Positions 15,837-21,424 of a stretch of 64,000 nucleotides of DNA are shown here, one piece after another. Origin of the DNA: an uncultured Pelagimonas sp. (lineage in GTDB: Bacteria > Pseudomonadota > Alphaproteobacteria > Rhodobacterales > Rhodobacteraceae). The position numbers were made by a program, and so were the translations under genes. Positions within the stretch are counted from its first letter, which is position 1; every line of letters starts with the position of its first letter. The stretch covers positions 124,001 through 188,000 of the forward strand of contig NZ_CANMKO010000006.1 in the NCBI RefSeq assembly GCF_947498515.1, written 5' to 3'. Below the pieces are notes generated by a model. That model was not told the DNA's origin and ran no database searches. It saw nothing but the letters and a program-made list of their open reading frames with translations.

Positions 15837-16664
15837 ATGTCCAATGCACAGCTTGAAACCGCCATCGAAGCCGCGTGGGAAGCACGCGACACCATCACGC
15901 CCGCAACGACCGGCGAAACCCGCGAGGCCATCGAAGATACGTTGAACGCTTTGGATAGCGGCGAGCTGCGCGTTGCGGAAAAACAAGCGGACGGCAGCTG
16001 GCACGTCAATCAGTGGGCCAAGAAGGCCGTTCTTCTTGGCTTCCGCATCAAAGATATGGAAGAGCAATCCGGTGGCCCACAAGGCTCTGGCTGGTGGGAC
16101 AAGGTCGACAGCAAATTCAAAGGCTGGGGCGACAACCAATGGAAAGCCGCGGGGTTCCGCGCCGTGCCTAACGCGATTGTGCGCAAATCGGCCTACATCG
16201 CGCCCGGCGTTGTATTGATGCCCTCCTTTGTTAACCTCGGCGCGCATGTTGACGAAGGCACAATGGTCGACACATGGGCTACCGTCGGTAGCTGTGCCCA
16301 GATCGGTAAAAACGTTCACCTCTCGGGCGGCGTTGGTATTGGTGGCGTGTTGGAACCCATGCAGGCCGGCCCAACCATCATCGAGGATAACTGCTTTATC
16401 GGCGCGCGGTCCGAAGTGGTCGAAGGTTGTATCGTTCGCGAAGGCTCCGTTCTAGGCATGGGCGTGTTCATCGGCCAGTCGACCAAAATCGTTGACCGTG
16501 AAACCGGCGAAATCATGTACGGCGAAGTACCCCCCTATTCGGTGGTTGTCGCAGGTTCCATGCCATCGAAAAACGGCATTAACCTCTATTGCGCTGTGAT
16601 CGTGAAACGCGTGGACGAGCGGACCCGCTCGAAAACCGGCATCAACGAATTGCTGCGTGACTGA
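15837..16664 (+). CDS. dapD: Tetrahydrodipicolinate N-succinyltransferase
   Basis: A 275-residue trimeric enzyme transferring succinyl from succinyl-CoA to tetrahydrodipicolinate in the succinylase branch of lysine and diaminopimelate synthesis. The N-terminal helical domain (about residues 1-100) is followed by left-handed hexapeptide repeats in which [23 protein letters not shown] is the family hallmark, then [25 protein letters not shown]. Length is standard. Its stop overlaps the next start as TGATG, so it heads a short operon with two small unknown genes. dapE lies 3.6 kb downstream on the same strand. Confidence 0.96.
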
Positions 16665-17032
16665 TGTCAAAACGCTTCGCCTCACTCTGCACCGCGTGGC
16701 TAGCCCTTGGGTTGGCCACCACTGCCTTGGCCGGACCATATGATGGGCTCTACTTCCCCGAAGGAGGAGCCGACCATTGGGATTGCCAGCGCGTCGGTGC
16801 AGATGGCGGAGCGATTTCCGTGCGAGACAACATGTTTGAGGGGGTGGAGAACCGCTGCACCCTGACCAATCCTGTTGCCGTGCGCGGTATGGAAGCCACG
16901 CTTTATGATGCGAAATGCAATGGCGAGGGCATGGAGTACGAGTATCGCATGATGCTGATGTCCAGCCCGCCGGGCCTTACCATTATCCGCGAAGGCTATG
17001 CCTCTTATTTCGAACGGTGTGATCAGCGATGA
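16664..17032 (+). CDS. Small secreted protein with four cysteines
   Basis: A 122-residue protein with a clear signal peptide (SLCTAWLALGLATTALAG, cleavage near residue 23). The mature part has four Cys (DWDC-, NRC-, AKC-, ERC-type contexts), suggesting two disulfides in the periplasm. No enzymatic motif is recognised. Its start shares one base with the dapD stop and its end overlaps the next gene by four bases (ATGA), so translation of the three genes is coupled. Why a periplasmic protein is coupled to dapD is unknown. Confidence 0.78.
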   Translation: MSKRFASLCTAWLALGLATTALAGPYDGLYFPEGGADHWDCQRVGADGGAISVRDNMFEGVENRCTLTNPVAVRGMEATLYDAKCNGEGMEYEYRMMLMSSPPGLTIIREGYASYFERCDQR

Positions 17033-17373
17033 GCAAAGACAATAAGCCCGCAAAAAAGCGCAAGCATCAGGTGTTCACCCTGCTGGTTGAGATTGGCCGC
17101 AAGGATGGCGACGGTTTGCCCGATAAGAGCACCGGCGCGGCATTGATGTGCTATGCCTCAGGCGTCGATGAGGCCGAAGCGGTGCGCGAAACCGTTGCGA
17201 TCCTCAAGCAGGCCGATACCGCCCCGCTTGATGTAACAGGGTACGGCACGCTCGATGAACGTCGCGAACAGGGTCATGACATCCCGGATGAAGAGATCGA
17301 ATTGATGGATCGGGCCTTGGCAGAGAACGCTGTGATTGTTGCTCAGGTCACGCCGTTTTTCGACAAGCCATAA
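17029..17373 (+). CDS. Small cytoplasmic protein of unknown function
   Basis: A 114-residue protein with a basic N-terminus (KDNKPAKKRKHQ) followed by an alpha/beta fold: VFTLLVEIGRKDGD, then YASGVDEAEAVRETVAILKQ. No signal peptide or catalytic motif is seen. It overlaps the preceding secreted-protein gene by 4 bases and ends the dapD unit; the convergent Hint gene stops five bases downstream. Confidence 0.75.
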   Translation: MSKDNKPAKKRKHQVFTLLVEIGRKDGDGLPDKSTGAALMCYASGVDEAEAVRETVAILKQADTAPLDVTGYGTLDERREQGHDIPDEEIELMDRALAENAVIVAQVTPFFDKP

Positions 17374-17377
17374 GGGG

Positions 17378-18451
17378 TTAGGCGGCGCGGGCTTCGGCCA
17401 GAGTGATCGCCTCAAATGGCCCCAAGACCTTGATCCCGGTTCGGGCGTGCTCTGGCATCAAATTGCGAGGCACATCACCGAGCAGGGTTTGATTTAGCTG
17501 TTCGGTCCGGCGGCGTAAACGCCCGACATAGAGGCTTTCAAGCTCGGCACCGGCGGCAACCACCGGCTCTTGCCCCGGCAGCAAAAGTTGATGGTATTCA
17601 ACCATTTGCAGCCCCTCCTCATAGACGGCCGTGAACCCATTCACGAGGCTCAGCGCCGGGATCAAAACCGCCTCGCGGCCGAAAATATACTCAACCTCGG
17701 AGCCGCCAATAACCAGCCGTTGATGCGGCGCAACCACAAGGTCCCGCATCAAACCGAGGTAGGGCGCACGCAAACGAACCGGTTGAAACGAACCCAGCGC
17801 CGGAACAATCCGCGACACCCTGTGTAACACTGGAACAATGCCGTTCTTGCGGGTGTTAACCGTGTCGCCACAGCGCAAATCAGACACGGCGCGATATCCG
17901 GTTGGCGTCATCACCGGAACCTGTCCAACCAGTGACGGCATCGGACCAACGGCCTCGATCTCATCCGACACGGCGAAAAAAATCACGTCCGGGTCCATCT
18001 CGATCAACTGCGGACGGCGTGCCAGAGTGTAGATATCTTCGACCAAAAGCGGCGGCGGCGCGGGCGTGGTTTCAACAACAACCGTATCACTTTCGGGGCG
18101 CTCAACCGCAATCCGGCCAAAGCGCGCCTCACTGTCCCAACTAAATGTCACCCGAAGGACATCGGTGCGGGCCTCGTGTTTGTGTTGCAAGACGGTGTGG
18201 AATACCTCTTCGCCTTGGCTCATCACCAAAACGATCCCGCCCCCCGGTACGGCGCGAAATGAAATCGCCCCAAACCACGGATGCGCCCGTTCATAGGACA
18301 AAAGCGTTTGTGGTCGACCATCCGGGGACAAGCGGGTTTCGATCATGATCGACCCCTTGGACATCAACCGGTCGCGTTGTTCAGCCCCGCCTCCGAAAAT
18401 CCGGGGACAGACCCAGGATTTTCCCTGGCCCGACAACGCGATCCAACTCAT
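17378..18451 (-). CDS. Hint-domain protein with a degenerate active site
   Basis: A protein of up to 357 residues. Residues about 175-330 form a Hint (hedgehog/intein) domain recognisable from GYRAVSDLRCGDTVNTRKNG, APHQRLVIGG and VEYHQLLLPG. The nucleophilic Cys normally found at the domain start (as PCFVAGT in the upstream neighbour) is missing: here the corresponding text is GQVPVMTPTGYRA. Self-cleavage is therefore not expected. The gene overlaps the upstream Hint gene by ATGA, so the two are made together. Start codons at 18451 or a later Met are possible. Confidence 0.82.
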   Translation of the reverse strand: MSWIALSGQGKSWVCPRIFGGGAEQRDRLMSKGSIMIETRLSPDGRPQTLLSYERAHPWFGAISFRAVPGGGIVLVMSQGEEVFHTVLQHKHEARTDVLRVTFSWDSEARFGRIAVERPESDTVVVETTPAPPPLLVEDIYTLARRPQLIEMDPDVIFFAVSDEIEAVGPMPSLVGQVPVMTPTGYRAVSDLRCGDTVNTRKNGIVPVLHRVSRIVPALGSFQPVRLRAPYLGLMRDLVVAPHQRLVIGGSEVEYIFGREAVLIPALSLVNGFTAVYEEGLQMVEYHQLLLPGQEPVVAAGAELESLYVGRLRRRTEQLNQTLLGDVPRNLMPEHARTGIKVLGPFEAITLAEARAA

Positions 18452-20022
18452 GCAACCTTGCTCCTGCTCAGCAGCGTCGCTTCGTGTCTTTGCAGAATGC
18501 GACGTGCTGCCGGACCGTACCCCGATCCGGTTTCCGGGTCCAGCTCTGGAAAGACATCTACGATTTCGGCAAGCGTTTCTTCTTCGAAGAGCGATGAGGT
18601 TTGCGGCCCCGGCAAAAAGCTTTCACTCAGCAGGCCATTGGCGCGAATGATTTCGTGCTGATCAAAGAGGATATGCACATATTCGACCGTTCCACCTTCT
18701 GCGACCCGAATGGAGTGATCGTTGATCAAATGCTTGGCTGCGGCAAGAACTTCGGGTTCTTCGAATAGCAGATGTGCCATAATATCCTGCACCAAAACCC
18801 GATGCTGGGGTGATACCATAACGGCCGCATGATCCCCCAAGGCACCAGCGGAAATGCGGATTGGCGCATAATTTCCGCGTGCCGGAACACTTCGACGACC
18901 AATCCAACGCAGCGGTTGCGGACCATGATCACGCGTGTTGACCAAATCCCCGGCCACAAGTTTGTGAACCGGTTTCTGCCCGTCTGGTGTTTCGATCATT
19001 GTCCCGGCAACAAAACACGGCACCGAGTCCACCGTGACGTAACCCACGTCGGTCTCGCCGGTCGAACTTGTGGCCGTATAGGTGTAGTTTATCGTTTCTT
19101 CGTCACCATCACCCAGAACCGACATGGTACCATCGGCGTTCAGGGTGATTTCCTGACCAGTGTTCAAAACGATTGTGTCACCGGCGCTCACGGCGGTGCC
19201 GTTGATATGGGTGATCGTCAACGTGCCTGCCGTTCCGTTTTCATCGTTTGCCAAGGCATCGACGACGCTGGAACCTGTGGTGTAGACTGTGACGCTGTCT
19301 TCTAACGCAACAAGGGTGGTCTGAACGGAATCTGCCGCGATCAACAAGTTGGAATCGTAACGATTGTCCACAACGTCGGCGACACCAATTCGGATCGAAT
19401 TCACCTGACCCGCTGTCACCGGCATGGTCAGAGTCATCGTGACCGTGAACCCGTCCATCTCGGTGTTGTATTCATCGTTTGTGTTGGAAATGAACAGATT
19501 CTCATTGGTCCCCGAGTTCACGTTCCGAGGGTCAATATCTCCGTCACCGATCGCAACATCGACCTGAACGCCATTCACCCAAACGCCAACGAAATCCTGA
19601 TATTGCGACGATTGGTATTCCGGGTATTCCTCAGACGAAAACACAAACTGCATCGTCATAAGATCTTCTGTCGGGATGAAATCAACATCCAGATAAGACG
19701 CATCATAGGTGCGGGTTCCAGCGGCGGCATTGAAGTCAGAGTTGTTGTTTTGACCGCTCGTATTTGTTGAGGTGTTGGTACGCCAATTCGATTGCCCCCA
19801 CGAGTTGGTAAAGTCCGTCACCCGCCCGGTGGACAGGATCACGCCCTCGTCCGACGGTGCGACACCCGGAGATGTGCCCAATCCGTCCGAAAAAATCCCG
19901 GATGACCGGCTGTCACCGGTATAGCTGGCCGAAACAACGGTGACCCCGTCCCCAAAGATGGTTTGCGCCATCTGGGTTGCATTGGCCCCGGTGTTGATCG
20001 GCAGTTCTGATGCTGCGACCAT
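18448..20022 (-). CDS. Choice-of-anchor L and Hint domain protein
   Basis: A 524-residue protein of a Roseobacter-typical extracellular type. Residues about 10-230 carry a choice-of-anchor L domain with FSSEEYPEYQSSQYQDFVGV and Asp/Asn-rich, probably calcium-binding stretches. A short bacterial Ig-like segment follows (LANDENGTAGTLTITHINGT). Residues about 330-500 are a Hint domain starting PCFVAGTMIETPDGQ, with the nucleophile Cys, and containing VSPQHRVLVQD. No classical signal peptide is seen; secretion by a type I system is plausible. ATG 20022 (MVAASELP) is preferred over an upstream in-frame codon. Confidence 0.82.
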   Translation of the reverse strand: MVAASELPINTGANATQMAQTIFGDGVTVVSASYTGDSRSSGIFSDGLGTSPGVAPSDEGVILSTGRVTDFTNSWGQSNWRTNTSTNTSGQNNNSDFNAAAGTRTYDASYLDVDFIPTEDLMTMQFVFSSEEYPEYQSSQYQDFVGVWVNGVQVDVAIGDGDIDPRNVNSGTNENLFISNTNDEYNTEMDGFTVTMTLTMPVTAGQVNSIRIGVADVVDNRYDSNLLIAADSVQTTLVALEDSVTVYTTGSSVVDALANDENGTAGTLTITHINGTAVSAGDTIVLNTGQEITLNADGTMSVLGDGDEETINYTYTATSSTGETDVGYVTVDSVPCFVAGTMIETPDGQKPVHKLVAGDLVNTRDHGPQPLRWIGRRSVPARGNYAPIRISAGALGDHAAVMVSPQHRVLVQDIMAHLLFEEPEVLAAAKHLINDHSIRVAEGGTVEYVHILFDQHEIIRANGLLSESFLPGPQTSSLFEEETLAEIVDVFPELDPETGSGYGPAARRILQRHEATLLSRSKVA

Positions 20023-20278
20023 GCTCGTCTGTCTCAATTGCGAGGCACACGACATCTTTTCCCGGCGAACCGAGTTAGACGAAAGATATCACTGAATACT
20101 GCGCGCCTGCCTCGGCGTTATCGTTGTTTTGATAATCTGTAACACATCCAACGGGTTGACGTTAACCTTTTCTCAACCTTTACCCTGCGGAACCCTTGGG
20201 CGGCCGATGTATTTTCGCCACATTTGCGATTGCTGCCTGACTGCGGTAGCCAAGTCCCAAAGCTTGAGGAGACACCAG

Positions 20279-21424
20279 ATGACCCGCATTGATCCCGCCG
20301 AATTGACCGCTCAGCTTGTGAAATGCGCCTCTGTGACACCCGTCGAAGGTGGCGCTTTGGTGCTCCTTCAAGGATTGCTAGAAGAGGCCGGGTTTACCTG
20401 CACGCGGGTTGATCGCAATGGCACCCCAAACCTCTATGCGCGCTGGGGAGACAAGGCACACAGCCGGAGTTTTGGCTTTAATGGTCATACGGATGTTGTT
20501 CCCATCGGCGACGAAGCTGATTGGCAACACGCGCCCTTTGGCGCTGAAATCATTGACGGTTTCATGTACGGGCGCGGCACCACCGATATGAAATCGGGAG
20601 TCGCGGCCTTTGCTGCCGCTGCGATTGACTATGTTCGCGAAACGCCCCCCGATGGCGCTGTTATTCTTGCCATCACCGGCGACGAAGAAGGCGATGCCAC
20701 CGACGGCACAATTGCCTTGCTGGATTGGATGGATGCCGAAGGCGAGGCCATGTCGGTCTGCTTGGTCGGAGAACCGACCTGCCCCGATCACATGGGTCAA
20801 ATGATGAAAATCGGACGTCGCGGATCGTTATCAGCTTGGTTCGAGGTCGAGGGCAAACAGGGCCATTCCGCCTATCCGCACCGCGCCTGTAACCCCTTGC
20901 CGGCAATGGCGCGCCTGATGGACCGCCTTGCCAGTCACGAGTTGGACCAAGGAACCGCGCATTTCGATGCCTCAACCCTTGCGGTTGTGACCATTGACAC
21001 CGGAAACCCGGCAACAAACGTCATTCCGGCCAAGTCTTCGGCCTGTGTCAACATCCGGTTCAACGACGATCATACCGGTGCCGAACTTAGCGATTGGTTG
21101 CGAAACGAGGCCGCCAAGGTCGATGCCGAGTTTGGCACGACAACAGGCGTCACCATCAAGATTTCTGGCGAAAGCTTCCTCACCCCTCCCGGTCCCCTGT
21201 CTGATTTGATCGGCAAAGCCGTCGAGGCAGAGACGGGCCACGCGCCAGAGCTTTCGACCACCGGTGGCACATCAGACGCGCGTTTTGTCAAAAACCATTG
21301 CCCCGTGGTTGAATTCGGGTTGGTTGGCAAAACCATGCATGCGGTTGATGAACGTGTCGAAGTCGCGCAAATTCATCAGTTGAAAGCGATCTACACCCGG
21401 ATTTTGCAGGATTATTTTGCATGA
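20279..21424 (+). CDS. dapE: Succinyl-diaminopimelate desuccinylase
   Basis: A 381-residue M20-family dizinc hydrolase releasing succinate from N-succinyl-diaminopimelate. Metal and catalytic motifs are complete: [46 protein letters not shown] and the C-terminal [14 protein letters not shown] 20279 has a TTGAGGAGA site and the family start MTRIDPAEL. It heads a plus-strand unit with the GNAT and TIGR04282-type genes, linked by ATGA and TGATG overlaps. Confidence 0.95.

Follow-up and report, generated by a model that had tools for sequence, protein, structure and literature searches.

Two coupled genes, each encoding a protein with a Hint domain, occupy the minus strand of the DNA segment analysed here (the window, 64,000 nucleotides from an uncultured Pelagimonas sp.). 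The upstream gene (ORF1) and its partner (ORF2) are flanked by the divergently oriented dapE, and the locus comprises the following features:

18448..20022, minus strand: ORF1, choice-of-anchor L plus Hint_2 protein, 524 aa
19324..19974, minus strand: choice_anch_L domain of ORF1 (NF038133)
18607..19020, minus strand: Hint_2 domain of ORF1, carrying both Cys and SPxH (profile match; a BIL domain is matched structurally at Z 13.0)
19015..19017, minus strand: codon of Cys336, nucleophile position of the ORF1 Hint domain
18802..18804, minus strand: codon of His407, block-B His of ORF1 (SPQH)
18448..18451, minus strand: ATGA, overlap of the ORF1 stop and the ORF2 start
17378..18451, minus strand: ORF2, partner with predicted lectin-like and pseudo-Hint parts, 357 aa
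17957..18451, minus strand: predicted jelly-roll (LamG/CBM40-like) N-terminal domain of ORF2, residues 1-165 (AlphaFold and fold search)
17522..17944, minus strand: putative pseudo-Hint domain of ORF2, residues 170-310 (profile and fold)
17933..17935, minus strand: codon of Ser173, nucleophile position of ORF2 (S32 T30 G14 A4 L1 among 81 orthologues)
17720..17722, minus strand: codon of Gln244, block-B His position of ORF2
20279..21424, plus strand: dapE, divergent neighbour marking the locus (NF009557, 472 bits)

Both ORFs were found where an earlier, sequence-only reading of this DNA had placed them, as minus-strand genes coupled through ATGA. We prefer 20022 as the likely start of ORF1 over the longer mechanical ORF start at 20055, since many orthologues have 522-530 aa, with the choice-of-anchor L domain beginning near residue 17. 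The 4-base overlap is present in 26 of the 57 orthologous pairs examined, and in 56 of them the two genes are spaced by -4 to +9 bases. In 75 of 80 loci dapE was found on the opposite strand; in the other five, the contig stops at or close to that end of the locus. On the other side of the pair in the window lies dapD, past two small plus-strand ORFs (16664-17032 and 17029-17373), for which no NCBIfam match was found.

Active-site residues of the two Hint domains

ORF1 scored 174.1 bits against the Pfam Hint_2 profile (PF13403, cut-off 28.4) and 160.3 bits against the choice_anch_L model NF038133 (cut-off 27). It contains both residues of an autoprocessing Hint domain, i.e. the position-1 nucleophile (Cys336) and the block-B His (His407). 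The sequence-only reading had considered that this domain might also be inactive, and the ORF1 neighbours of ORF2 orthologues speak against it: Cys is kept in 56 of 58 (the exceptions being one Tyr and one sequence that is cut off), and block B reads SPLH, SPQH or SPEH in all 58. An intein-type C-terminal His-Asn, the criterion for BIL type A, is absent from ORF1, whose Hint domain ends in SESFLPG. The pN/pS values of this domain ranged from 0.113 to 0.272, which is a rough guide, as dS was mostly saturated. Among relatives of ORF1, the Cys is replaced by Tyr in L113:4375-5991 and by Arg in L201:3089-4153, so the active side is occasionally lost.

The Hint_2 match of ORF2 (101.9 bits, same profile and cut-off) covers the second half of the protein. 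In an ungapped profile alignment, Ser173 (PMPSLVGQ) stands opposite Cys336 of ORF1 (VPCFVAGT), and VPVMTPTG (residues 178-185) stands opposite TMIETPDG (341-348). The same register was obtained with VIA-align, where ORF2 173 and ORF1 336 begin the alignment at intein residue 1 in several rows, and also fall on hedgehog residue 258. The sequence-only reading was therefore right that ORF2 has no Cys at the nucleophile position, but it had located this position in VPVMTPTG, which lies five residues beyond the actual site. ORF2 has also lost the His of block B (APHQ versus SPQH in ORF1), a point absent from that reading.

In 81 near orthologues (the best 80 of 242 relatives plus the window protein), the nucleophile column holds Ser, Thr, Gly, Ala or Leu and never Cys, and the block-B His position is Gln in 81 of 81, so the combination of position-1 nucleophile and block-B His that marks an autoprocessing Hint is missing from ORF2, despite its Ser173, and from these orthologues. 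Inteins of class 1 and class 2 depend on the block-B His, and those of class 3 use a Cys in block F (F:4), as described in the relevant part of PMC4031507. No conserved Cys column that could serve a class 3 route was found in ORF2 (the most frequent one reaches 23 of 81, counting columns of the window protein). Since ORF2 has neither the block-B His nor the block-F Cys, it would be a pseudo-Hint on sequence grounds. The alignment, taken together with the predicted fold described below, shows a putative domain in which the Hint fold is kept while the catalytic Cys and the activating His are gone.

A column-by-column comparison with 55 ORF1 rows revealed many Gly, Pro, Leu and hydrophobic columns common to both proteins. 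Five ORF1 rows (L070_8881, L126_8609, L101, L113 and L116) were dropped by hand, among which L113 has the Tyr mentioned above and L101 looks damaged. Lost on the ORF2 side are Cys336, His407, His398, Arg372-Trp373 and Asp454 (ORF1 numbering); His456 is mostly retained in the partners, and the window ORF2 has Gln there. The Hint part of the ORF2 orthologues also contains invariant motifs specific to the partners.

Predicted folds, selection and possible export

The AlphaFold model of ORF2 (32 sequences) has a pLDDT of 92 and a pTM of 0.90. That of ORF1 is weak overall (pLDDT 65, 18 sequences), and its Hint part alone was used. The bacterial intein-like (BIL) domains 6y75 and 2lwy, tied with several inteins, are the top structural matches of both Hint parts, with Z 13.8 for ORF2 against the best of them. 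The hedgehog autoprocessing domain (1at0, 6tyy) has the same fold as both (Z 10.9 for ORF2 against 1at0); we know of no dead partner gene in hedgehog. ORF1 shows no block G likeness and has no C-terminal His-Asn, as described for BIL type B in the relevant part of PMC4031507; type B domains also cleave without splicing, which in ORF1 is a prediction. ORF2 differs from BIL domains in the loss of the active site, and from the Hint_2 family, to which both domains belong by score, in having no Cys or block-B His.

Pfam recognised nothing in the first 184 residues of ORF2. In the model, residues 1-169 match CBM40/sialidase lectin domains (Z 11.8, 3.6 A over 143-146 residues, 10% identity), and Foldseek also returned laminin G, neurexin, clostridial neurotoxin binding domains and other jelly rolls. 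This head thus appears to share the fold of CBM40/laminin-G jelly rolls, a common one, which does not show sugar binding. A jelly-roll head was found in none of the 112 choice-of-anchor L ORFs of the fetched loci. The C-terminal part of ORF1 is its Hint domain, and 111 of these 112 ORFs carry Hint, the loci having been chosen around these genes. No fusion, i.e. an ORF with two full Hint domains, was found in the loci searched.

Purifying selection was found on both domains of ORF2, and the pseudo-Hint fold is kept under it: pN/pS against seven relatives was 0.086 to 0.384 (again a rough guide, with dS mostly saturated). Family alignment, fold and selection support the proposal of the sequence-only reading that a dead partner accompanies an intact Hint protein.

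A profile search detected no RTX repeats in ORF1 or ORF2, which in this respect differ from RTX type I secretion substrates; such repeats are present in five of the nine Hint_2 paralogues scanned. By eye, a similar C-terminal tail is shared by ORF1, ORF2, the partners printed and the RTX-Hint paralogues. The shared tail and the RTX repeats of the paralogues suggest that the two proteins belong to a class that would be exported.

Distribution and ancestry of the partner genes

A scan of GTDB species genomes with ORF2 yielded 242 relatives, of which the best 80 were taken as loci (L070-L149). By title, they comprise genera of the Rhodobacteraceae, alphaproteobacterial MAGs and one record (L080), probably mislabelled, that carries this locus under the name Enemella evansiae strain TN21-6; Enemella is an actinobacterium. 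Among these best 80, the ORF1 Hint gene lies directly upstream of the partner in 58 (including L116, in which ORF1 is cut), and 20 have the partner without an adjoining ORF1. A contig end truncates two loci (L123 and L142), leaving 78 informative ones, and with 58 of 78 the conservation of the pair in roseobacters, raised as a question by the sequence-only reading, is confirmed. In the 20 loci without ORF1 the partner is retained beside dapE; one of them (L076, Sagittula marina) has a 53-residue ORF1 remnant. Nearly all of the 80 loci have a long open partner frame, and in one MAG (L130:6001-7095) the partner is split into two ORFs.

In a survey of 248 genomes representing 247 genera (about one per genus), 98 partner genes passed a threshold of E 1e-45, spread over 97 genomes. 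ORF1 adjoins 65 of them, with the partner downstream in 63 and in swapped order in 2. The reversed arrangement, with the partner upstream of ORF1, was observed in L060 (G029) and on contig C8 of G108. Both genes were scored in 68 genomes, the partner only in 29, ORF1 only in 30 and neither in 121, which corresponds to an odds ratio of 9.5 (p 2e-15, kinship uncorrected, partial ORF1 rows left out). As 18 choice-L-only or Hint-only rows were not entered (122 were), 11 of 109 genomes leave the ORF1 count, and hence at least G147 and G185 are scored as partner only despite a partial ORF1 match. Of 29 stretches around ORF1-like genes from genomes without a close partner, 10 contain a more diverged adjoining partner, and in the other 19, several of which are cut by contig ends, no partner was found beside ORF1. 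Diverged partners also adjoin ORF1 in two further genomes of this kind (G013 and G028). Searching PLSDB plasmids with ORF2 (tblastn) gave 68 records, none covering 80% of the protein; the matches listed are annotated as 'Hint domain-containing protein' and cover the Hint part.

ORF1 and ORF2 co-diverge beyond dapE (partial r 0.76, 53 loci), a figure that joint horizontal transfer, or noise in the slowly evolving dapE, can also produce. Faster evolution of partners without ORF1 was considered as a sign of dependence and rejected, since their rate is unchanged (2.33 versus 2.31 times that of dapE, p 0.77, 20 versus 56 loci).

The partners form one clade in both phylogenies: 28 of 28 in the first (ultrafast bootstrap 100), and 48 together with one unlabelled relative in a wider FastTree analysis (support 1.0), 28 of the 48 being also in the earlier tree. 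This clade excludes ORF1 as well as the genome's other Hint_2 proteins; the ORF1 proteins group less firmly (70 and 0.78). The origin of ORF2 as a tandem duplicate of ORF1 was therefore rejected. The invariance of Gln noted above holds for near orthologues; among the 48 more diverse partners the block-B position is Gln in 34 and His in 4, and the nucleophile Cys is present in 3 and also in L174, which is cut. The Cys-keeping proteins L063, L205 and L208 constitute a nested branch, to which L174, outside the tree, is assigned by likeness, and two members of this branch also have the block-B His. Judged by these residues, the partner clade would not be dead everywhere. Because regaining both Cys and His is less likely than keeping both, the ancestor was probably catalytic, and several branches would have lost these residues, often with a His to Gln change.

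The genome from which the window derives contains 15 Hint_2 places above the cut-off and one fragment below it. Cys and block-B His are both present in 11 of the 15, including ORF1, and Cys is missing from four, including ORF2. The other three are L012:1504-2004 (Ala with Gln), L017:2146-3162 (Ser with His) and L020:2181-2972 (Ala, with Ala at the His position). A second choice-of-anchor L plus Hint_2 protein (L014:2306-3916, contig C7) has the Cys and an SPxH-type block B, and no partner gene adjoining it was found at the thresholds used.

Possible roles of the coupled proteins

ORF1, a choice-of-anchor L protein whose Hint core is complete, is probably secreted or located at the surface. Its Cys336 would form an internal thioester at which the protein is cleaved; cleavage rather than splicing is expected because the intein-type C-terminal His-Asn is lacking. 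ORF2 would be a co-produced adaptor whose jelly-roll head binds a glycan or another surface ligand, and whose dead Hint domain and C-terminal tail may act as a docking or export module. This module might recognise the machinery used by ORF1, or the Hint domain of ORF1 or of other Hint_2 proteins, so that ORF2 would help ORF1 where both occur and serve a separate purpose in loci lacking ORF1. We tentatively favour such a secreted lectin-like adaptor, retaining Hint as a docking or export fold, as a good possibility that falls a little short of probable; it fits best because it covers both the retention of ORF1-less partners at the same evolutionary rate and the joint divergence with ORF1.

The sequence-only reading had suggested a chaperone, inhibitor or anchor for the active protein. 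An obligate role of this kind is weakened by the 20 of 78 loci without ORF1 and by ORF1-like genes beside which no partner was found. As a dedicated regulator, ORF2 would bind the Hint domain of ORF1 and delay, trigger or chaperone its self-cleavage. The tight gene spacing in 56 of 57 pairs, the co-occurrence and co-divergence of the two genes, and the coding of a pseudo-enzyme next to its active relative agree with this, but the ORF1-less cases, with their unchanged rate, and the ORF1-like genes just mentioned do not, and we regard it as rather unlikely. Since 20 loci keep the partner without ORF1 and it evolves no faster there, it is unlikely that ORF2 does no more than inhibit or chaperone the neighbouring protein; the same retention and relative rate indicate that it probably has a function independent of ORF1, perhaps together with other Hint_2 proteins. 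Because each gene also occurs without the other, the data do not force a physical partnership. ORF2 might then be a self-standing secreted lectin with a structural Hint remnant, linked to ORF1 through a shared transcript and a shared need and making no contact with it, as the partners standing beside dapE without ORF1, the jelly-roll head and the selection on both domains would allow. Close coupling and conserved gene order argue against such independence, and the invariant Gln and the partner-specific motifs suggest a specific use of the Hint domain; we consider it unlikely.

Three further explanations deserve less weight. Ser/Thr173 acting together with Gln244 could provide a different Hint chemistry, in which case ORF2 would not be dead. 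Ser/Thr does occur in 62 of 81 orthologues beside the invariant Gln, and Ser1 can act in inteins according to the relevant part of PMC4031507, but the remaining 19 have Gly, Ala or Leu, the block-B Ser is replaced by Ala in 54 of 81, and a conserved Cys for class 3 is missing. Another residue as nucleophile, an objection anticipated by the sequence-only reading, is thus very improbable. Ongoing decay of ORF2 into a pseudogene is barely credible: catalytic residues are lost in most of the branches sampled and one partner ORF is split, but purifying selection largely refutes decay, and the long open frames, the invariance of non-catalytic residues and the persistence of partners without ORF1 also speak against it. 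Finally, ORF1 activated as a thioester, or another Hint_2 protein of the cell, could be captured by the pseudo-Hint acting as a general acceptor or docking subunit, which would then transfer the released domain either to a glycan or to itself. Live and dead Hint domains would in this way jointly assemble surface structures with covalent anchoring. We regard this as quite improbable; if true, marine roseobacters would possess a hedgehog-like system of two components for surface anchoring.

Kinases and proteases offer known examples of pseudo-enzymes encoded next to active relatives. In the open-licence PMC literature we found no paper describing a conserved pairing of pseudo-Hint and active Hint. 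Known parts (Hint_2, choice-of-anchor L and jelly roll) are combined here in a new way, and the pairing of a surface-type Hint protein with a dead-Hint protein in many roseobacters is old. It offers a direct handle on Hint function, as one coupled locus supplies an active and an inactive version, and genes for each are also found without the other. According to the relevant part of PMC12487129, Hint_2 is one of the functions enriched in those Rhodobacteraceae that responded strongly in bloom experiments.
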